In this document: one piece after another, positions 342 through 62,632 of the stretch
Layout of the letters: each line of letters begins with the position of its first letter
Position numbering within the stretch: the stretch's first letter is position 1
DNA from: Halobacteriovorax sp. HLS
GTDB taxonomy: Bacteria > Bdellovibrionota > Bacteriovoracia > Bacteriovoracales > Bacteriovoracaceae
Assembly (NCBI RefSeq): GCF_004006665.1
Contig: NZ_QOCL01000003.1
Coordinates: 372,001-436,000 of the forward strand
Length of the DNA: 64,000 bases
Reading direction: 5' to 3'
The notes under the pieces: generated by a model
Told to the model about the DNA's origin: nothing
The model's database searches: none
What the model saw: only the letters and a program-made list of their open reading frames with translations
Made by a program: the position numbers and the translations under genes

Positions 342-899
342 ATGATCAAACTTTTTTTTGTAGGCCTACTATCTCTATATTCTATTAACTCTTATAGCTT
401 GGTTGGAGTAGGTGGTTATGTTCCTTTTGGTATGAGCACACAAAGTGAATCTGATGGATCAAGAAGAACCTTCTCTTTTGAGCCTTATGTCTATGCTAAT
501 ACAATCTTGTCAGCTCCCTATAATCATCTATTCTTACCTGAGGTTGGACTGGTTATTCATACAGCTGAGAAGTTTGACGACTATAGTAAGTCCACAATAT
601 TCTTGCTCTTAGATGTTGGGTACAAATTTACACCTGCATTGATTTTAAGGTATGGGCTAGGTTTGTTTAGAACTTCGATCAGCTCTGATGGTGGCGCTGT
701 TATATTAAATAATGGCTCTGGAACTTCAACATTTTATAAAGCGAGTGATTCTTCAACTAGTTATAATACAACTTGGAATCTAGGGCTTGAACATTCATTT
801 AACTCAAATTATTCTTTAAAGTTTCAGACATATCTGTTTGAACCAATTTCTTCTCAAAGAGATATTAGTTATTCTCTTTCAATTTCTTATTATAGGTAA
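342..899 (+). CDS. Small exported protein, probable outer-membrane beta-barrel
   Basis: 185 residues. The start follows a strong ribosome-binding site (AAGAAGGAG at 325-333). Residues 1-19 form a signal peptide (MIKLFFVGLLSLYSINSYS). The mature part has alternating hydrophobic strands rich in Tyr, Ser, Gly and Thr (for example YGLGLF, NTTWNLGLEH, SLKFQTYLF), ending SLSISYYR, which suits an 8-stranded barrel of about 165 residues. I recognise no specific family. The matrixin-like gene starts only 4 nt after its stop, so the two are probably co-transcribed. The barrel call rests on composition and pattern only. Confidence 0.7.
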   Translation: MIKLFFVGLLSLYSINSYSLVGVGGYVPFGMSTQSESDGSRRTFSFEPYVYANTILSAPYNHLFLPEVGLVIHTAEKFDDYSKSTIFLLLDVGYKFTPALILRYGLGLFRTSISSDGGAVILNNGSGTSTFYKASDSSTSYNTTWNLGLEHSFNSNYSLKFQTYLFEPISSQRDISYSLSISYYR

Positions 900-903
900 A
901 ATT

Positions 904-1671
904 ATGAAGGCCATTGCAGTATTTATTATTTGTATGAGTTGTTTTAATTCTAATGCATTTACTCTTGTCTCTAGTCCTCCTACAAAGTTTCCGGTGATGG
1001 AAGTAGTAGTTAATGTATCTAGTGACAGTTGTTCAGGAGCTGGTATTACGAATGAAGGTCTACTTGATTTAGTCGAAACAGCGGCCAATGATTTTTGGAA
1101 TAGTGTCACAACAAGTGCACTAGTTCTTAAAAGAGGTACTCTTGTGTCGACAACATTGAATGGAGTAACCTCTATAGGAGCTGCGGCCTCTCAGACTACA
1201 GCAAATACCATTATAGTTGGATGTTCTACAAATACGACTTTATTTCCAACTCCTGGGAGTGATAACACTCTTGGTGTAGGAGGAATTGGATCTTACTCAA
1301 GTGGAGTAAAGGGTGCCTTTCTCGTGAATGCTAATGGTAATTTTGTGAATCAAGGACAAACTGAGCGCTTAGCTGTCATCGCACATGAGCTTGGTCATGC
1401 TTTAGGTCTAGGTCATTCGTCTGACCCTATTGCTCTAATGTACTACTCTGTCAGTTCTAAAACACAAGAGAGATTAACTATGGATGATAAGGATGGCCTA
1501 ACTTATCTCTACCCGAACGAAGATGCTATTGCTGCTAGTTGTGGGAGTGTCTCATACAGTGGCGATAATGGAGGAGGCCCTAGCAGTTTATTGCTAACTC
1601 TTCTTGGATTTTTATTACTCATGAGATTCGCTCGTTTTGACAAAAAAAATGCCTCCATAATGGAGGCATAA
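904..1671 (+). CDS. Exported matrixin-like zinc metalloprotease with GlyGly-CTERM-like tail
   Basis: 255 residues from ATG 904; the frame is open further upstream to 838, but the 904 start gives a clean signal peptide (MKAIAVFIICMSCFNSNA) and lies 4 nt after the previous stop. The zinc site is HELGHALGLGH (His161, Glu162, His165, His171), the HExxHxxGxxH motif of metzincins, and Met179 in ALMYYS fits the Met-turn; matrixins (M10) are the closest match. There is no recognisable propeptide. The C-terminus has a Gly-rich stretch near residues 222-226, then a hydrophobic segment (SLLLTLLGFLLLM) and basic residues RFARFDKK, like GlyGly-CTERM proteins processed by rhombosortase. The last codons also encode a terminator for the opposing lysS gene. 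Confidence 0.85.
   Translation: MKAIAVFIICMSCFNSNAFTLVSSPPTKFPVMEVVVNVSSDSCSGAGITNEGLLDLVETAANDFWNSVTTSALVLKRGTLVSTTLNGVTSIGAAASQTTANTIIVGCSTNTTLFPTPGSDNTLGVGGIGSYSSGVKGAFLVNANGNFVNQGQTERLAVIAHELGHALGLGHSSDPIALMYYSVSSKTQERLTMDDKDGLTYLYPNEDAIAASCGSVSYSGDNGGGPSSLLLTLLGFLLLMRFARFDKKNASIMEA
1642..1669 (-). terminator. Rho-independent terminator of lysS, inside the matrixin coding sequence
   Basis: A perfect 10-bp stem (ATGCCTCCAT at 1649-1658, ATGGAGGCAT at 1660-1669) is followed on the minus strand by eight T residues (A8 at 1642-1649 on the plus strand). It lies just past the lysS stop at 1674 and is translated as the final residues of the convergent protease gene. On the plus strand there is no good T-tract, so it serves lysS mainly. 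Confidence 0.85.
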
Positions 1672-6253: not shown

Positions 6254-9200
6254 ATGAAAAATCTAATTAGCATATTGCTTCTTGTAATGCTTGGCCAATT
6301 CAGCTTCGCACAAGGAACATCTAACAGCACCAACACGGACTCAAGTGGTAATGTTATCGATCCTCTTGATAATTATATCGACCCTGCAACTCAGCTTGAT
6401 TATAAAGCTCAATTAGAAAAGCTAAATGATGATCAAAAAGAGGTTGTTTTTGAACGTTGTATGATGTTCACAATCCAAGCGGAAATGGGGCAATCTGGTG
6501 AGGACTCTATGAGTGCTGCAGATATTGAAGCCTATGAAAATCTAGTTGCTCAACAATGTAAGTGTGTTGCTGATGGTAGTACATGGGTAAAAGAGTCTAC
6601 TATGAAGGGTGAGTGTAAGGCCGACCAGCCAGCTGAAAAAGACTTACTTGTTCATACAATGGACCTATGTGTTGGGCAGATGCAATTAACAGACGATAAT
6701 TGTAAAAATAATATGACTGACTCTTGTGTTAATGATTTTAGGTATCAGTGTTATCAGTATATGACTCAGCCTCAAGAGTTTTCTGAAAAATCAAATCCTG
6801 TTCTTAATAAATGTGAGTATGATGATCAAACTAAGAATATTAAAATGGAATGTCGTTCATATTGTTACATAAGAAAAACATGTGAAGTTACGCAAGAGGA
6901 TTTTAAGAATAGAAAAATTGGAAATATTTATTTATTACAAAAGAAGAGTAGATCATCTTGTGTAAAGGGTTCTACCTATGGAATCGATAGCGATAATAAA
7001 ATGTGGGTTAATAACTCTTGTCATGGTGAATTCGCTATTCAGTATAAAGATCCAAAATGTGGTTTTAGACCAACATGTTCTCCTAAGCCTCATGAAACAG
7101 ATAATATCACTCAGTCAGGTACACAAACATTTGATATGGTTTGTGATGGTAAGATGGCCGAAGTTGAAGGTGGAAAATTCTTCTGTAAGGCACATGTAAA
7201 GAAAATTGGAACTGATGGAAAAATGACTGATGAGCCAGATTACGGAAAAGAAATTACTTATATCTCAGATGTTAAGTTAGGAAAGAAGATTGGTGCGGCC
7301 AAGTGTAACCAAGGTGGTAACGGAAGTGCGATTGATTTTAGTCCTAGAAATAAAGGTTCAAATGCTGAAGGCTGGGGGATTGAAGTCCAAAATAAGTGTC
7401 ATTCGACTTTTACAGTAACTGCAAAGTGGAAATTAAAGCTTTGTACTCTTGCAGGTCAAGAGACTACTTCTGGTGATACTTGTTGTGGAGGACTTTACTT
7501 TGATAATGTTACGAAAACATGTAATGTTCCGGCATTTAACCCAGGTCCAGTAGAAGAAGAAGCGGCACTTGCTCTTGATTATTCAAAAAATGCTTGTAGT
7601 CCTGAGATTCCAGCTGATGCTCAAGGTATTGTTGATAAATACTTTGTAGAGCTTGGTTACTATGAAAATATGTTTACTTTAATTGATGGTAGTTCTGATG
7701 GTATTAGCTCTATTGAAACACCTGTGGCCAGAGCTAAGAGACTTGCTGCTAATTCTGAATATGATGAATGGAAAGAAGCTGAAATGGCACGTCTAGATAA
7801 AGAAAAGGCTGAGTTTGAAAAGACTGCTGAAGCAATGTCTGATGCAGCAGCAAAAGAAGAATTTGTAAAAGCTCAAGAAACAGCTCATAGAGAGAAAGTA
7901 TTAGCACTTGAAGAAGAGATCACTAAGAGAAAGAATGCTCTTGCTGAACTTGAAATGGATGCTGATAAGACTGCTACCGAAATCCGTAAGTCTACTTATG
8001 ACTCTGTTAAGCTAGTTCATGACGCTGTCGTTAGATTTAGAGCTGAGTGGTCTGAGCAAACAGGTCAATTCAACGATGCTGAAAAGCATCTTAGAGAACA
8101 AGGTGAACAGTATACTGCATACTTGAAAAAGGTTGACTCTAAGAAGGTTGAAAAAGAAGATACTGAAGCGATTAAAGGTAATATTTTTATGGGAATGGAT
8201 ATTCAAGGGATGTCTCATGAAAGTCAAAAATTGGCCAAGCATATGCAGATCTCTTATATCATGTCGATTAAGAATGCTTTAGTGAAGTATGAAGCTGATT
8301 TAGAAAAGGCCGCTCATGCTGGTCAGAACCTTGCTTGGTACTGTGCTCATAATGAAAATTGTTCTGAATATAACTGGCTTATTAGAGATAGATCAAAAGA
8401 AGAAGTTGTAGACTTCCTTCATGATGCTCCTCACCCATTTAAATTGGTTCAGGCCAGAGGAAGAATGCTTCCAAAGATTTCTAAAGTTAACAAGTTACTT
8501 GTAGATACTGATGTTTACTCAAAGTTTGAGCAAAGTGAAGGATCGCAAAAAGGAATGGCGAATCTTGATATTATGAATCAGTTCTTTTCTTATCAAGCAC
8601 AAGATAAGGTACCATTTCCTAAGAATGAAGTTGAAGGAGATGCAGCAGCTTCAAAAGATGCTGATAAGATTTTAAATTTATTTAGACAGTATACTCAAGA
8701 GTTTCCACTTAGAGAGAATAGTCTTTTCAAAGATAATGAAATCTTAAAAAATTACCTAGCTGTGTCTAAAGAAGGTAAGAATAAAGATGGACTGCCGCTT
8801 TACTGTGAAAAGCAAGAAGATTACGATGTTAGAGTACCAATTGGTAAAGCTATTGAACCTTTAAGAATGTTACAAATGGTTAGAGTTGTTAAGAAGTTCT
8901 ATGACTTATACCTTGAAGCCTATTCTGCGAATGAGAAGTGTCTTATTGCTCTAGACGCTGATCGTGACCCTAATGCTGGTAGAGCAGATCTTGATCTTAG
9001 ATTAACTCAAAGAGCTGGTGGTGAACAAATTGTTCCTAAGGCCCAGAATCAGGACAGAAGTTTTGTGAATGGTTTTGCAGGAAATCTTAAGTCACTAATG
9101 GGAGGAACATTTGGTAGTGTTCCAGAAGGTTCTTTCTTTGATAACTTAAGTAATAGAGAGCCAGGAAGTTCTAACTTAGATGCTAAGGCCGAAAGTGAAT

Positions 9201-9754
9201 TAAGCGCTATTAAAAAGAAAGAAGCGGATAGAATTTCTAAACTTATTAAAAGAAGAATTAATCGTAAAAAGGATAAGGATTTAGATAATTATATTAAATC
9301 TCTAGGAAGTACTCTAGGTGCAACTCTTACTAAAAGAGATAGACAATTTGCTTCCCTTTCTCCTTCTGGAGCATCTGGACTAAGCGGTATTTCTGGTGTT
9401 AATGATCTAAATTCAGCTCTTAGTGGAAAAGACAGAGATGGTAGCAAGTCTTCTGGAGTTGGTAGCTGGAAAGGTTCAACTGGAGGAAGCGGATACACTG
9501 GTGGATCATCTCGTCCTAGATATGGAAGCTCTAGAGGAAATGGTTCAAACGGTGGAAGTAACTCTGGATCTTATGGAAGTAATGGTGGAAGTAACTCTGG
9601 TGCAAATTCTGCCAACGAAGAGATTCTTTCAAATGTTGATGATTCAAAATTTGATTCAAAAGAAAGTGATTCAATTTTTGAAAAGGTTACTAAGAGATAT
9701 ATAAGAACAGCTTATCCATTCTTACTAGAAACGAAGAAGAAAGAAGAGAAATAA
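6254..9754 (+). CDS. Giant exported Cys-rich/coiled-coil protein with a low-complexity Gly/Ser segment and conserved tail
   Basis: 1166 residues from ATG 6254 (AAGAGGG just upstream); the frame is open from 6203, but only the 6254 start opens directly on a signal peptide (MKNLISILLLVMLGQFSFAQ). Order of parts: a cysteine-rich region (about 60-420, many spaced Cys suggesting disulfides); a charged coiled coil (about 500-575, with runs such as RLDKEKAEFEKTAEA); a mixed helical region to about 960; a basic helix; then Gly/Ser repeats (GGSNSGSYGSN units, about 1070-1120); and a final tail SIFEKVTKRYIRTAYPFLL. The tail resembles that of the exported protein at 38801-40639. No family is recognised. 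A surface or periplasmic structural role is inference. A bidirectional terminator follows. Confidence 0.85.
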   Translation: MKNLISILLLVMLGQFSFAQGTSNSTNTDSSGNVIDPLDNYIDPATQLDYKAQLEKLNDDQKEVVFERCMMFTIQAEMGQSGEDSMSAADIEAYENLVAQQCKCVADGSTWVKESTMKGECKADQPAEKDLLVHTMDLCVGQMQLTDDNCKNNMTDSCVNDFRYQCYQYMTQPQEFSEKSNPVLNKCEYDDQTKNIKMECRSYCYIRKTCEVTQEDFKNRKIGNIYLLQKKSRSSCVKGSTYGIDSDNKMWVNNSCHGEFAIQYKDPKCGFRPTCSPKPHETDNITQSGTQTFDMVCDGKMAEVEGGKFFCKAHVKKIGTDGKMTDEPDYGKEITYISDVKLGKKIGAAKCNQGGNGSAIDFSPRNKGSNAEGWGIEVQNKCHSTFTVTAKWKLKLCTLAGQETTSGDTCCGGLYFDNVTKTCNVPAFNPGPVEEEAALALDYSKNACSPEIPADAQGIVDKYFVELGYYENMFTLIDGSSDGISSIETPVARAKRLAANSEYDEWKEAEMARLDKEKAEFEKTAEAMSDAAAKEEFVKAQETAHREKVLALEEEITKRKNALAELEMDADKTATEIRKSTYDSVKLVHDAVVRFRAEWSEQTGQFNDAEKHLREQGEQYTAYLKKVDSKKVEKEDTEAIKGNIFMGMDIQGMSHESQKLAKHMQISYIMSIKNALVKYEADLEKAAHAGQNLAWYCAHNENCSEYNWLIRDRSKEEVVDFLHDAPHPFKLVQARGRMLPKISKVNKLLVDTDVYSKFEQSEGSQKGMANLDIMNQFFSYQAQDKVPFPKNEVEGDAAASKDADKILNLFRQYTQEFPLRENSLFKDNEILKNYLAVSKEGKNKDGLPLYCEKQEDYDVRVPIGKAIEPLRMLQMVRVVKKFYDLYLEAYSANEKCLIALDADRDPNAGRADLDLRLTQRAGGEQIVPKAQNQDRSFVNGFAGNLKSLMGGTFGSVPEGSFFDNLSNREPGSSNLDAKAESELSAIKKKEADRISKLIKRRINRKKDKDLDNYIKSLGSTLGATLTKRDRQFASLSPSGASGLSGISGVNDLNSALSGKDRDGSKSSGVGSWKGSTGGSGYTGGSSRPRYGSSRGNGSNGGSNSGSYGSNGGSNSGANSANEEILSNVDDSKFDSKESDSIFEKVTKRYIRTAYPFLLETKKKEEK
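9551..9600 (+). repeat. Short tandem repeat coding Gly/Ser-rich units
   Basis: A 17-nt unit (GGTGGAAGTAACTCTGG) occurs at 9551-9567 and again at 9584-9600, a 33-nt period, encoding an 11-residue GGSNSGSYGSN-type repeat in the giant protein. Such in-frame repeats can change copy number by slippage without breaking the frame. Confidence 0.7.
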
Positions 9755-9793: not shown

Positions 9794-10369
9794 TTAAGGA
9801 TAAATATTTATTGGAGTGTTCTTTTTTACTAACGAGAATATTTCATTCATCTCTTCATCACTTACTGCTACACAACCATTAGTCCAATCAAAGAAAGGGT
9901 AGAAGTAATCTCTGGCCCATCTATCAACCGTATCTTTTTCAATACCTAACTTTGCAGCAAAATTAATTACAGCTTGTGTTGGCCTATACGGATTTCCATG
10001 TATGAGGATCATTCCTCCTATTTGGTCTAATGGTATTCCTCGCACTCTTGCATTGTGCTTATCTTTCCAATTTGGGTAGCTAATAAGTAGAGATTTAGGA
10101 AATCTCGTATTTTGTCTTTTTTTAGAAATCTTGTAAAAGCCTACAGGTGTTTGATTATCACCTTCTCTTTCTTTGGCCTTCGCTCTAAATAGGGGGTTAT
10201 TATAAGAAATTGATAATTTTACATCATAGGTTTTAAATAATTTATCACCCTGCCATAGTTGCAGCTCTCTTTTGTCTTTCAAGACAATGATGTGAGAAAT
10301 ATCCTGGGCCCAACTCATGTTGGACAGTAGTGTAAATAGTAGAAATATTGTGAATAGTTTGATTTTCAT
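9794..10369 (-). CDS. Exported L,D-transpeptidase (YkuD fold, YafK-like)
   Basis: 191 residues with signal peptide MKIKLFTIFLLFTLLSNMSWA. The YkuD catalytic motif is present: His124 in ILIHGNP and the nucleophile Cys166 in WTNGCVAVSDEEM, 42 residues apart as in the family. These periplasmic enzymes make or cut 3-3 peptidoglycan crosslinks, or move lipoprotein onto the wall; the YafK/DpaA branch cuts lipoprotein from peptidoglycan. The short form without a LysM or binding domain, and the overall pattern (TPVGFYKISKK, SYPNWKDK), fit YafK-like members best, but the exact reaction is not settled by sequence. The signal peptide places it in the periplasm. It stands alone, convergent with the giant gene. 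Confidence 0.88.
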   Translation of the reverse strand: MKIKLFTIFLLFTLLSNMSWAQDISHIIVLKDKRELQLWQGDKLFKTYDVKLSISYNNPLFRAKAKEREGDNQTPVGFYKISKKRQNTRFPKSLLISYPNWKDKHNARVRGIPLDQIGGMILIHGNPYRPTQAVINFAAKLGIEKDTVDRWARDYFYPFFDWTNGCVAVSDEEMNEIFSLVKKNTPINIYP

Positions 10370-38800: not shown

Positions 38801-40639
38801 TTAATCTTTAAAAAGTCTTCTATATCCAGATTTATTATATCTATTAGTTAATATTCTAAATATAGACTCTTCTTTCTTATTATTTATGTCAGCGTCACCC
38901 GTATTGTAGGTTTTATCCATATAGTCCCCACCTTTAAAGGTTTGAACATTTGAGCCCCCTGAATTATCCATATTAAAACTTACATTAAAGTCATCAGATT
39001 TTTTCTTCTTCTTTTTACCCATTCCTTTGCCGCCTTCCATTACCAGGCCATCGACTTTATTTGGTGATTTCGCAATAATTTCCTGTAACGATTTTTCTGC
39101 TTCAGCAAGAGGTGAGCCTATGTCAGACTTAGGTCCTCCTGAAGCTGCAATACTTTGTGCCTGTTTAGAAAGATTTCCTTCAACTTTTTTGAAGTCTTCT
39201 AGAGTCATCGGTCTTTGTTTTCCATTCTTGTCTGTCACTTTTAACTTTGAAATTACTTGCTTCTTTACTGCATCACCAATAGCAGTTAATTGATTTGAAG
39301 ATAGATTTAGTTTTCCTGGAGCATCAATACCTGAAGTTATATTATTCATATCTTCTTCAAGTTTTTTTATATCTAACATTTTATCAAAACCTCCAAGGTT
39401 TACCGTAGAGAAGTTGGCCTTTCTACATGCATTATTACCTTGTTGGTCTTTAAATTTTCTACACTCACAATTTGGGTCAAACTGTCCATTAACTTTAATA
39501 CAGCCAATTCTTTCTTTTACTGGGGAACCACGTTGTTTATCTCTTGATTTGGCATATAGTTGTCTATCATTAGAATTCCACAAGGCCTTACATTTGGCCG
39601 AATTAGTTCTATTCGATTTCTTCTTTCCATCTTCATAACAATAACAAGTGAGATCAGATTTATCATCGTGACCCTTAGGACAATATTGTCCCATTCCATC
39701 AACGAATTGATTTTTAGCTACGTCAATTTTTTCGGCTAACAATTTTGCTTTGTCAGCTTCTTCACCAGAAACATCTGCAAGTTTAATTTGATAGCCGAAG
39801 TTTACTGTATTTATTGCGGCAATACCCCATGGAGTAGATGTGAATTTCATCATTGCACCAACATATGGTATTGAAGCTGCTGCACCATCAAAGTTTTTCA
39901 TAAATCCATCAAAACCTTTTTGTCCTGAACCCATTGTTTCTTTATCAAGCTCTTCTCCTTCTCCATCATGGGTTTGATCAACACAGCTCATCTGGCCATA
40001 TGTGGCTTCTGTAACTGCAACAGCAACTGTTGCCATATAACAAGCTGCAGTTATTTTATGGGCCTTCTCTTTCATTTCATAAAATTTCGCTATATTATTC
40101 AATTGATCAATCTGCGCTTGATAAGCAATCACTTGAGTGTCGAAGTTTTCTTGATCTTTGGCCCTGCTAAGAAAATCATCTTTTATACTATTAGTTGCCT
40201 TACGTCCCTTGCTTCTTATGACGAAATTTTTAACTACAGCGGCTGCGCCACATAATGAAGACAACTTTAAAGAAGTACATGAAGTATACTTCTTACTTGT
40301 GCCCACATACCACATATTTACCCCTGAGAGTAAAAAAGAAAGTGAGTTTAGAATTAACTCATTATTATCATCAAAATCATCAAGGCTTGCATCACCAGAA
40401 ACTTCCTTAGCAAGCTTGAACATACAATCGTCTCTTAATTCTTTAGTCTCTAAATTTGTACATGATCGATAATTCTTTAAACTATCTTTGAATTCTGTTT
40501 TTAAGATACATCTGTTCAATTGTAGTGACCATGTTCTGGCGGCATCTTCACGACAAGCAATTTTCTTATCTTCAAACTCATCTGCGTGAGTCGAAAATAT
40601 AGAAATGGCGATGAATATAGAAAAAATCAATGCTTTCAT
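38801..40639 (-). CDS. Exported Cys-containing protein sharing a C-terminal tail with the giant protein
   Basis: 612 residues with signal peptide MKALIFSIFIAISIFSTHA. Early Cys pairs (KKIACRED, LNRCILK, YRSCTNLETKELRDDCMF) and a Cys-rich stretch near 330-400 (CPKGHDD, LTCYCYED, GCIKVNG, PNCECRKF) suggest disulfides. Two hydrophobic stretches (around 85-105 and 195-215) could be buried helices. A Lys6 run precedes the tail, which is ESIFRILTNRYNKSGYRRLF. The giant protein ends SIFEKVTKRYIRTAYPFLL, similar at about 10 of 23 positions. No family is recognised. plsC follows after 83 nt. Confidence 0.8.
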   Translation of the reverse strand: MKALIFSIFIAISIFSTHADEFEDKKIACREDAARTWSLQLNRCILKTEFKDSLKNYRSCTNLETKELRDDCMFKLAKEVSGDASLDDFDDNNELILNSLSFLLSGVNMWYVGTSKKYTSCTSLKLSSLCGAAAVVKNFVIRSKGRKATNSIKDDFLSRAKDQENFDTQVIAYQAQIDQLNNIAKFYEMKEKAHKITAACYMATVAVAVTEATYGQMSCVDQTHDGEGEELDKETMGSGQKGFDGFMKNFDGAAASIPYVGAMMKFTSTPWGIAAINTVNFGYQIKLADVSGEEADKAKLLAEKIDVAKNQFVDGMGQYCPKGHDDKSDLTCYCYEDGKKKSNRTNSAKCKALWNSNDRQLYAKSRDKQRGSPVKERIGCIKVNGQFDPNCECRKFKDQQGNNACRKANFSTVNLGGFDKMLDIKKLEEDMNNITSGIDAPGKLNLSSNQLTAIGDAVKKQVISKLKVTDKNGKQRPMTLEDFKKVEGNLSKQAQSIAASGGPKSDIGSPLAEAEKSLQEIIAKSPNKVDGLVMEGGKGMGKKKKKKSDDFNVSFNMDNSGGSNVQTFKGGDYMDKTYNTGDADINNKKEESIFRILTNRYNKSGYRRLFKD

Positions 40640-60721: not shown

Positions 60722-62632
60722 TTATGGAGTATTTGTATCAAAGTCATAGTTTAAGATATCATCATTGATTTTCTTGATACCAATAGTTGTACTTGACTCT
60801 TCAGAACTAGAAGAGCTTCCTTCTAGATTGATATTAGCTTTTTGAATTGATTCATCCAGGGCCTGGGCCTTACCAGTATAGGCCGCCTCATTTTTAACTG
60901 AGATTGCTTGAATATTCTTCTCGGAAAAAGCATTCCCACCAAGCTCTTTTTGAATAGAAGATGTATTTCGTCCTACGACTTTTCCATCACTATCTTTAAT
61001 TTCTAAAAATCCTGTTACAATATTATTGTAATGAATGAGTTGGGCATAGTTCTCTGTCTTAGCTGAAAGCTCTGAATGAATTTTCTTTAATTTCTCTAAA
61101 TCCGTATTTCCAGATTGATCTGAAATATTTATGACACCTTCTTTTTGAGAAGTCTGTGCATCTAGCTTGTCATTAAGACTTTCGATGAGTTGCTCTTTTT
61201 CCGCTTCATATCTTCGAGTAATCTGTTCTTTTAGTGCATCGATATCTGTCGTTTGCAATTGCTTTTGAATCTCTTCCTCACTACGACCTTGATCAATAAG
61301 AAACTCTTTTATATCCTCTTCATTATTGCTGTTTTTTAATTTATTGACCTTACTTATTAAACTCTTTTGTCTAAGGGCATGTTCTTCTTTAAGCTTTTCA
61401 ACTTCCGCTTTATTGGTATTTAAGTACTTCTTACAAGTTTCTTGTGCTCCTGGAGAGAAGGCATATTTTACATTTCCAGTATCTGGGTCAACAGTTTTTA
61501 CAAGACACTTTTCAAACTCGGCCAAGTCTGCACTTACTTCCTTTGAGAATCCTGACTCAGCGGCAAACTCATTTGATGAAGTCGTTGTAATATTCTCTAG
61601 TTTTTCTTTATTAAGAATGACTTTTTCTACTATAGTATTTTTCTTAGCATCAGTTCCTTGAACACTATATGATCCATCTTTTGCAAGGGCTTCATATCCT
61701 TCACTTATTTTTCCTGCTGCTTTTAAATTCTGCTTTGCCACCTTTAAGTAATTTGTCACTTCACAGGCACGTTTGGACGAGTGCTCGATATCCTCTTTCG
61801 TATACTTAGGCATTTTAGGTATTCTACTGTCTGTATTTTCTAGTTCTTTCTTTAAAAGACCCCCTCGTGTTGCCTTTTTAGTGACGGGATCAATTTCTCT
61901 ATATTCGTCATGACAAACATGTTGCAGATTCTTTAGACAGATGGACCAACTCTTTGATTGTATTTCGGCCTCTGTTAGTGGATTTCCATCAGCATCTGTT
62001 TGCAGTTGAGTATTGGAGAGCGCATCTAGATTATACTTTCTAACCTTTTCAACTTCTTTTTTGTCTTTGTAAATGAGAGGATAATTCTTTATATTTTCTG
62101 CATCTATACAATAAGAGCTTACGGCAGAGAGAATATTTTTAGTGATTTGATTCTCATACATTTTATTAAATTTTGAGTGATCGAGAATTTTAACTTTACC
62201 GTTAGCACTTGGATCATCTCCAAAGATCTCTTTACTTATTTTCTTTGCATAGAACTCTTCAAGAGCTTTTAGTGATTTTGTTTGTTTTGTTTTTAGAGCA
62301 ATTGGTGTCACTGATTCATACTGATTAATACCATCAACCTGATTTAGGGTGGCATCCATTTCGGCCTGGACTTTATTTTTAATGGCCTCATCGGCCTCAA
62401 CTTTTTCCCAGATACATTCAGAAATATCTGTTCTAGATGATGATTCACAGCTTTCTTTAATTTTTGCTACTTCAGGAATTTCTAAGAGTTTTGCGAGTTG
62501 ATCAACCTCTTCATTATGAACTTGGTAATTACCTATATCTTCTGTGTCCGTCTCAGGTTGTTCATTGGCGATAACACTGATTTGCAGTGGTGCAAGAAGT
62601 AGAAAAATAGAGGTCGTAATCAAGCGTAACAT
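60722..62632 (-). CDS. Exported coiled-coil protein of unknown function
   Basis: 636 residues, signal peptide MLRLITTSIFLLLAPLQISVIA. An early Cys pair (KESCESSSRTDISECIWEK) and later Cys (VSSYCIDAEN, WSICLKNLQHVCHDEY, RACEVTNY, EKCLVKT, ETCKKYL) suggest disulfides; the central and C-terminal part (about 380-560) is heavily charged helix (KLKEEHALRQK, RRYEAEKEQLIESLND). The early Cys pattern resembles that of the 38801-40639 exported protein, but the shared tail is missing. No family. Divergent-free, lies between acyl-CoA dehydrogenase and the C/H/D protein, all minus strand. Confidence 0.78.
   Translation of the reverse strand: MLRLITTSIFLLLAPLQISVIANEQPETDTEDIGNYQVHNEEVDQLAKLLEIPEVAKIKESCESSSRTDISECIWEKVEADEAIKNKVQAEMDATLNQVDGINQYESVTPIALKTKQTKSLKALEEFYAKKISKEIFGDDPSANGKVKILDHSKFNKMYENQITKNILSAVSSYCIDAENIKNYPLIYKDKKEVEKVRKYNLDALSNTQLQTDADGNPLTEAEIQSKSWSICLKNLQHVCHDEYREIDPVTKKATRGGLLKKELENTDSRIPKMPKYTKEDIEHSSKRACEVTNYLKVAKQNLKAAGKISEGYEALAKDGSYSVQGTDAKKNTIVEKVILNKEKLENITTTSSNEFAAESGFSKEVSADLAEFEKCLVKTVDPDTGNVKYAFSPGAQETCKKYLNTNKAEVEKLKEEHALRQKSLISKVNKLKNSNNEEDIKEFLIDQGRSEEEIQKQLQTTDIDALKEQITRRYEAEKEQLIESLNDKLDAQTSQKEGVINISDQSGNTDLEKLKKIHSELSAKTENYAQLIHYNNIVTGFLEIKDSDGKVVGRNTSSIQKELGGNAFSEKNIQAISVKNEAAYTGKAQALDESIQKANINLEGSSSSSEESSTTIGIKKINDDILNYDFDTNTP

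Follow-up and report, generated by a model that had tools for sequence, protein, structure and literature searches.

Why do two large exported proteins encoded in the window, the whole 64,000-nucleotide stretch of Halobacteriovorax sp. HLS analysed here, share a short C-terminal tail, and could that tail act in sorting or anchoring, as the initial annotation supposed? Translation of the ORFs recovered the described pattern at both ends: P0001 (ORF 6254-9754, plus strand) terminates in ...KESDSIFEKVTKRYIRTAYPFLLETKKKEEK and P0002 in ...NKKEESIFRILTNRYNKSGYRRLFKD, the latter read from the minus strand of 38801-40639, the plus strand of which is full of stops. The two proteins have the following features.

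6254..9754, plus strand: P0001, a 1166-residue exported protein with orthologues in genomes G001-G004
6845..7066, plus strand: DUF3011-like Cys segment of P0001 (residues 198-271; E=8.9e-6, 26.2 bits, cut-off 25)
9356..9664, plus strand: Gly/Ser-rich linker of P0001, 103 residues (28 Ser, 24 Gly)
9656..9733, plus strand: tail of P0001, SKESDSIFEKVTKRYIRTAYPFLLET; own-genome profile match at G000:C3:381656-381733, E=6e-10
38801..40639, minus strand: P0002, a 612-residue exported protein of a family-wide group
38804..38881, minus strand: tail of P0002, NKKEESIFRILTNRYNKSGYRRLFKD; profile match E=7e-12, with an isolated helix at residues 593-603
38888..39163, minus strand: disordered linker of P0002, residues 493-584, pLDDT about 29-50

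P0001 runs from a signal-like N-terminus through about 29 cysteines, the DUF3011-like segment and a coiled-coil-like middle to the Gly/Ser linker and the tail, and P0002 consists of a signal-peptide-like start, a Cys-rich part, a long helical hairpin, the disordered linker and the tail. The signal-peptide-like segment at each N-terminus agrees with the export assigned to both proteins earlier, and the linkers are of low complexity as described. Ser and Gly are abundant in the 103 residues of the P0001 linker, as are Gly, Lys, Ser, Asp and Asn in the 95 residues of that of P0002. A small exported YkuD-like ORF (9794-10369, minus strand; L,D-transpeptidase-like as judged by eye) adjoins the P0001 gene. 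The window also encodes an exported metalloprotease-like protein (838-1671, plus strand) that weakly matches a myxosortase-dependent metalloprotease model and has an end, CGSVSYSGDNGGGPSSLLLTLLGFLLLMRFARF, of MYXO-CTERM-type likeness, with Cys-Gly, a hydrophobic helix and Arg in this order. A further large exported protein, of 636 residues and without known domains (60722-62632, minus strand), lacks the tail, so the tail does not sit on every large exported protein of such kind.

Pairwise BLASTP found 11 of 33 residues identical between the two tails. It also weakly aligned residues 811-1011 of P0001 with residues 116-314 of P0002 (E=6e-4); a longer domain common to both proteins was rejected, as this alignment is absent among their orthologues. 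Homology outside the tail was not detected, profile-profile comparison giving a probability of 3.9% for the whole proteins and 0.2% for the aligned region, which upholds the earlier description of the two proteins as different along their length.

The tail is kept in all four same-genus orthologues of P0001, which are full-length in the genus's four other genomes, and likewise in 4/4 of those of P0002. Relatives of P0002 were found in 24 of 39 near genomes, with alignments that reach the last residues in almost all; those with names belong to Bacteriovoracaceae/Halobacteriovorax, to related Bdellovibrionota bins, or to bins titled 'bacterium', 'Deltaproteobacteria' or 'Epsilonproteobacteria'. 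Among P0001 orthologues, conservation amounts to 0.92 in the tail, 0.74 in the body and 0.59 in the linker; the P0002 family gives 0.75, 0.35 and 0.40, respectively, and three further groups have tail values of 0.62-0.65 and body values of 0.30-0.38. In the alignments of five groups, no stretch, or hardly any, is better conserved than the tail.

A chance origin of the tail was ruled out by a reversed-HMM control, a position test and codon variety. The set of tail proteins was assembled from profile searches and from the sequence surrounding their matches. On the ORFs fetched in this way, the tail HMM produced 199 matches (E<0.01), and the reversed HMM gave no match below 0.1. The core [IL][FW]xx[ILV][ST]xRY occurs 142 times within the last 40 residues of these ORFs and 0 times in their 309,228 other residues. 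All six Arg codons are in use for the invariant Arg across carriers, hence the tail is conserved as protein and not as DNA. Since the fetched loci had been chosen for the tail, the profile search of the window's own genome serves as the unbiased check of C-terminal position: it returned seven strong matches, all C-terminal in large ORFs with export-like N-termini. A search with the pattern at the DNA level was too strict and recovered the two known sites plus noise only.

Whole-genome searches, with a profile of 33 tails first and of 49 tails next, confirmed the observation and extended it from two proteins to a family-wide signature. In Bacteriovoracaceae, 75 of 80 genomes have a tail match at E<=0.01, usually 3-9 per genome, and the tail is lost or nearly lost in the genus g45, in G006 and in the incomplete G244. 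Searching related genomes with a tail profile was the check put forward together with the original claim, and its outcome speaks against confinement of the tail to two proteins within a longer domain: further protein groups carry it, and orthologues keep it. Therefore, these exported proteins do end in a conserved tail that follows a flexible linker with hardly any Cys. Beyond the family, matches to the core profile are weaker and for the most part C-terminal; at E<=0.02 they occur in 55 of 161 genomes, a figure for which about 3 are expected by chance and which takes in 14 genomes that supplied training sequences as well as matches of E 0.001-0.02 not individually read. The matches read are exported-looking proteins of roughly 290-810 residues with ends such as SIFKVVSKRYVKE or NIFEMVHRRYQQK, and shorter variants of the tail terminate exported proteins elsewhere in the phylum, outside the Bacteriovoracaceae. 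At two loci (L280:1034-2728, plus strand; L281:1523-3367, minus strand), a Cys-/Gly-rich exported protein adjoining a tail gene bears the C-terminal variant DN[IL]WRRVS[NA]KYQQLCQRGELYGCQ.

Comparison of 155 distinct carriers defined the core as [IL][FW]xx[IVL][ST]xRY, usually with S or N before it; in Bacteriovoracaceae it usually continues as xx[ST][GA]xxR[LF][FL] (109 of the 155 carriers). From the core to the protein end there are 15 residues in the median, and often 10-39. A hydrophobic segment is present at the N-terminus of 133 of 136 full-length carriers versus 64% of 99 control ORFs, as scored by a hydropathy rule and not by a signal-peptide predictor. The composition of the linker is disorder-like (0.70 versus 0.59 internally), and the 60 residues preceding the tail contain three Cys in total over the 155 carriers; group medians of whole-protein Cys range from 4 to 38. 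AF2 models of P0002 and of one group D protein both show a helical body, a disordered segment of ~100 and ~180 residues, respectively, and a lone short tail helix of 11-14 residues; confidence at the tail ranges from low to moderate, with pLDDT values of 35-48 in one model and about 60 in the other. A simple amphipathic helix was rejected, as the helical moment of the tail over all its 18 residues does not exceed that of shuffles; the first 13 residues alone are only mildly amphipathic.

Is the tail a portable tag, or the end of one superfamily? BLAST sorted the tail-trimmed carriers into as few as 14 or as many as 33 clusters, according to the threshold. Profile comparison of the tail-trimmed groups with HHalign, which covered all but the last pairs, placed groups A, B, C, G, I, N and O, and in part H and P, in a single superfamily of remote relationship that includes P0002; the probabilities were 95-99.8% against group A or its relatives, and the homology spans as many as about 400 residues. 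It detected no homology to this superfamily outside the tail for groups D, E, F (that of P0001), J and M (A-F 3.9%, A-D 1.6%, A-E 2.2%, A-M 7%), and found a weak link of 46 residues between groups E and F. Two types of gene bear on how the tail is distributed among proteins. In the first, a group D protein with the tail carries an N-terminal L,D-transpeptidase domain (E=1e-46), and in a homologue from another genus the transpeptidase domain, the C-terminal half and the motif are all preserved.

L102:6931-9279, minus strand: L,D-transpeptidase (YkuD_2) and group D-like body, tail at the very end
G003:C1:66286-68628: the same arrangement
G010:C5:105218-107677: the same arrangement

In the second, two adjacent genes of freshwater Bacteriovorax correspond to the halves of a split P0002-type gene. 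Their products both have export-like N-termini of their own; only the downstream, C-terminal product bears the tail.

L110, L111, L113, L114, L115, L117, L118, L124, L126: split P0002-type gene

Tail genes of the P0002 type and of group D lie close together at L105, L106, L111, L113-L117, L119, L121, L125, L134 and L138, but far apart in the window's genome.

Given that remote homology, over stretches of up to about 400 residues, unites most carriers (groups A, B, C, G, I, N, O), the tail might simply be what stays conserved at the C-terminus of one ancient and rapidly diverging superfamily of all carriers, with an intramolecular role in folding or oligomerisation instead of a portable one. 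The AF2 models of groups A and D also arrange their long helices in a similar order, although sequence comparison finds nothing, so the bodies of these two groups may have a deep common ancestry. However, P0001 and groups D, E, J and M have no homology to the superfamily outside the tail, the tail lies away from the body behind 100-180 predicted disordered residues, and the core also ends an L,D-transpeptidase protein and ~300-residue proteins of other families. We thus regard a single superfamily as a rather unlikely explanation. Judged from sequence, the same tail appears on several protein groups without detectable homology elsewhere, and by hydropathy its carriers seem to possess N-terminal export signals, both of which are expected of a targeting tag.

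We propose that the tail is a C-terminal helical docking or retention tag read after export by a conserved envelope receptor, and assign this reading a probability of roughly one half. The carriers would leave the cytoplasm via an N-terminal signal peptide, and the body with its many cysteines would fold after export. The flexible, nearly Cys-free linker would then present the short helix [SN]-[IL]-[FW]-x-x-[IV]-[ST]-x-R-Y, which continues with lineage-specific residues such as x-x-[ST]-[GA]-x-x-R-L-F, to a conserved receptor in the cell envelope. By binding this helix, the putative receptor may retain, anchor or hand on several different large exported proteins per cell. Our data establish a tag at the C-terminus of several unrelated-looking groups, set behind a linker, predicted to be helical and associated with export-like N-termini; the sorting or anchoring role suggested for it initially is plausible. 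For a conserved C-terminus as short as this one, roles in oligomerisation, chaperone binding or stability are conceivable as well. The analysis turned up neither a receptor nor a processing enzyme; in the window's family, no conserved gene neighbour qualifies as the receptor, and the tail genes there stand among unrelated neighbours.

The combination of an N-terminal signal segment and a C-terminal tail on large Cys-rich proteins is also the two-signal layout of a secretion substrate. Following Sec-dependent transport across the inner membrane, the tail might direct passage through the outer membrane via an undescribed or repurposed machine, in the manner of T9SS cargo. Members of this phylum are known as predators with a large number of exported proteins, which would suit such a role. 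Nevertheless, we consider it unlikely: the tail is a helix of ~20 residues and not a β-sandwich domain, a dedicated machine was not identified, and the T9SS translocon SprA/Sov (PF14349) has no match in five genomes, a search that gave no positive in the control genomes either.

Being large and Cys-rich, the carriers might profit from help in the periplasm, and flexible C-terminal peptides are classic recognition sites of chaperones and tail-specific proteases. The tail could accordingly be a chaperone-binding or turnover element that steers the folding or degradation of these proteins. We find this very improbable, as the motif often lies 10-39 residues short of the end, unlike exact-end degrons, and as the conservation of R-Y and I-F/W is more specific than that of typical chaperone sites.

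If the tail docks exported proteins as we propose, the receptor might be part of a Tad/Kil-type apparatus with a TadG-like tip pilin, which related predators use against prey. In other families, three loci (L273, L275 and L307) have a Tad-family (PF13400) gene either directly next to a tail gene or one to two genes away from it. Of 27 genomes tested, 26 contain a TadG-like gene; the exception is G006, from which the tail is missing too. In addition, Kil/Tad tips are known to mediate prey killing by Myxococcus, and Kil-like genes matter in Bdellovibrio invasion (PMC12075869, PMC8460266). By contrast, the TadG-like gene is near no tail gene in the window's family, and the genus g45 retains TadG with the tail nearly lost. 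A receptor linked to the Tad/Kil apparatus is therefore possible but weakly supported, and docking to this apparatus as the function of the tail is, in our estimate, very improbable. The three loci combine the tail gene and the TadG-like gene with an unknown exported protein, and often have neighbours of peptidoglycan-recycling type (NagZ-, MurU- and AmgK-like, by eye). Nearly every genome tested encodes a single TadG-like protein of ~890 residues (G000:C4:175824-175964 and equivalents), which is absent from G006. On a broader scale, Bdellovibrionota may possess a special route of envelope docking or secretion, with a C-terminal helical tag that occurs throughout Bacteriovoracaceae and, in shorter variants, in other families; by this route, a set of large uncharacterised exported proteins, an L,D-transpeptidase included, would be brought to one machine, possibly of Tad/Kil type. 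We hold this wider scheme to be unlikely.

The tail is a short sequence that marks about 3-9 large exported proteins per Bacteriovoracaceae genome, most of them without a known domain. Bacteriovoracaceae are relatives of the predator Bdellovibrio, and Bdellovibrionota hold many predators of bacteria. If the tail is an address tag, it would group function-unassigned envelope proteins of predatory bacteria into one pathway, and the ~20-residue peptide would provide a handle to pull out the receptor. The discoveries of PEP-CTERM, GlyGly-CTERM and MYXO-CTERM each led to a new processing enzyme.

The initial annotation knew of no signal with this pattern, and our searches concur. The tail belongs to no family in Pfam, NCBIfam, PHROGs or PDB sequence searches, and the carrier bodies to almost none; P0001 and P0002 had only unrelated weak matches in NCBIfam at E<=1, and a fold search of the P0002 model against PDB gave nothing below E=0.4. 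No description of the tail was found in the literature searched, subscription journals and preprints being outside its scope. Membership of the tail among lipoprotein, CTERM and T9SS signals was rejected in each case. The likeness to CTERM and T9SS sorting signals, which the annotation had pointed out, holds for the C-terminal position; it does not extend to a membrane helix plus basic end or to a large β-domain.

Similar to the tail, the CTERM signals (GlyGly-CTERM/rhombosortase, PEP-CTERM/exosortase and MYXO-CTERM/myxosortase) are short homologous C-termini that follow a linker on otherwise different exported proteins, occur many times per genome and are restricted to lineages. They combine a signature with a membrane helix and end in basic residues (PMC6219818, PMC11980579). 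In contrast, the tail has an invariant R-Y, usually with charged residues after it, and no membrane helix, the highest 17-residue Kyte-Doolittle mean of the tail region being 1.13 and the average 0.11 over 155 tails; therefore it is no CTERM signal. Curated NCBIfam CTERM models gave no match at E<=0.001 among 57 carriers.

The T9SS CTD is a β-sandwich of ~70-80 residues found in Bacteroidota. In its TIGR04183 type, it resembles the tail as a C-terminal region on Sec-exported proteins with varied bodies, whereas the tail is a predicted helix of ~20 residues; lacking a β-domain, it is no T9SS CTD. Encapsulin cargo peptides also end a disordered linker with a short helix or peptide that brings different proteins to one receptor, but such peptides act in the cytoplasm and the tail proteins are exported. 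The tip minor pilins of Kil/Tad systems share with the tail proteins their occurrence in predatory bacteria, and in some families tail genes lie near TadG-like genes; compared to these pilins, the tail proteins are several per genome and have no Tad or pilin Pfam domain. Altogether, the tail looks like a C-terminal signature not previously described; its occurrence on several large exported proteins in almost all Bacteriovoracaceae genomes examined gives it the appearance of a new address or docking tag of cell-envelope proteins.
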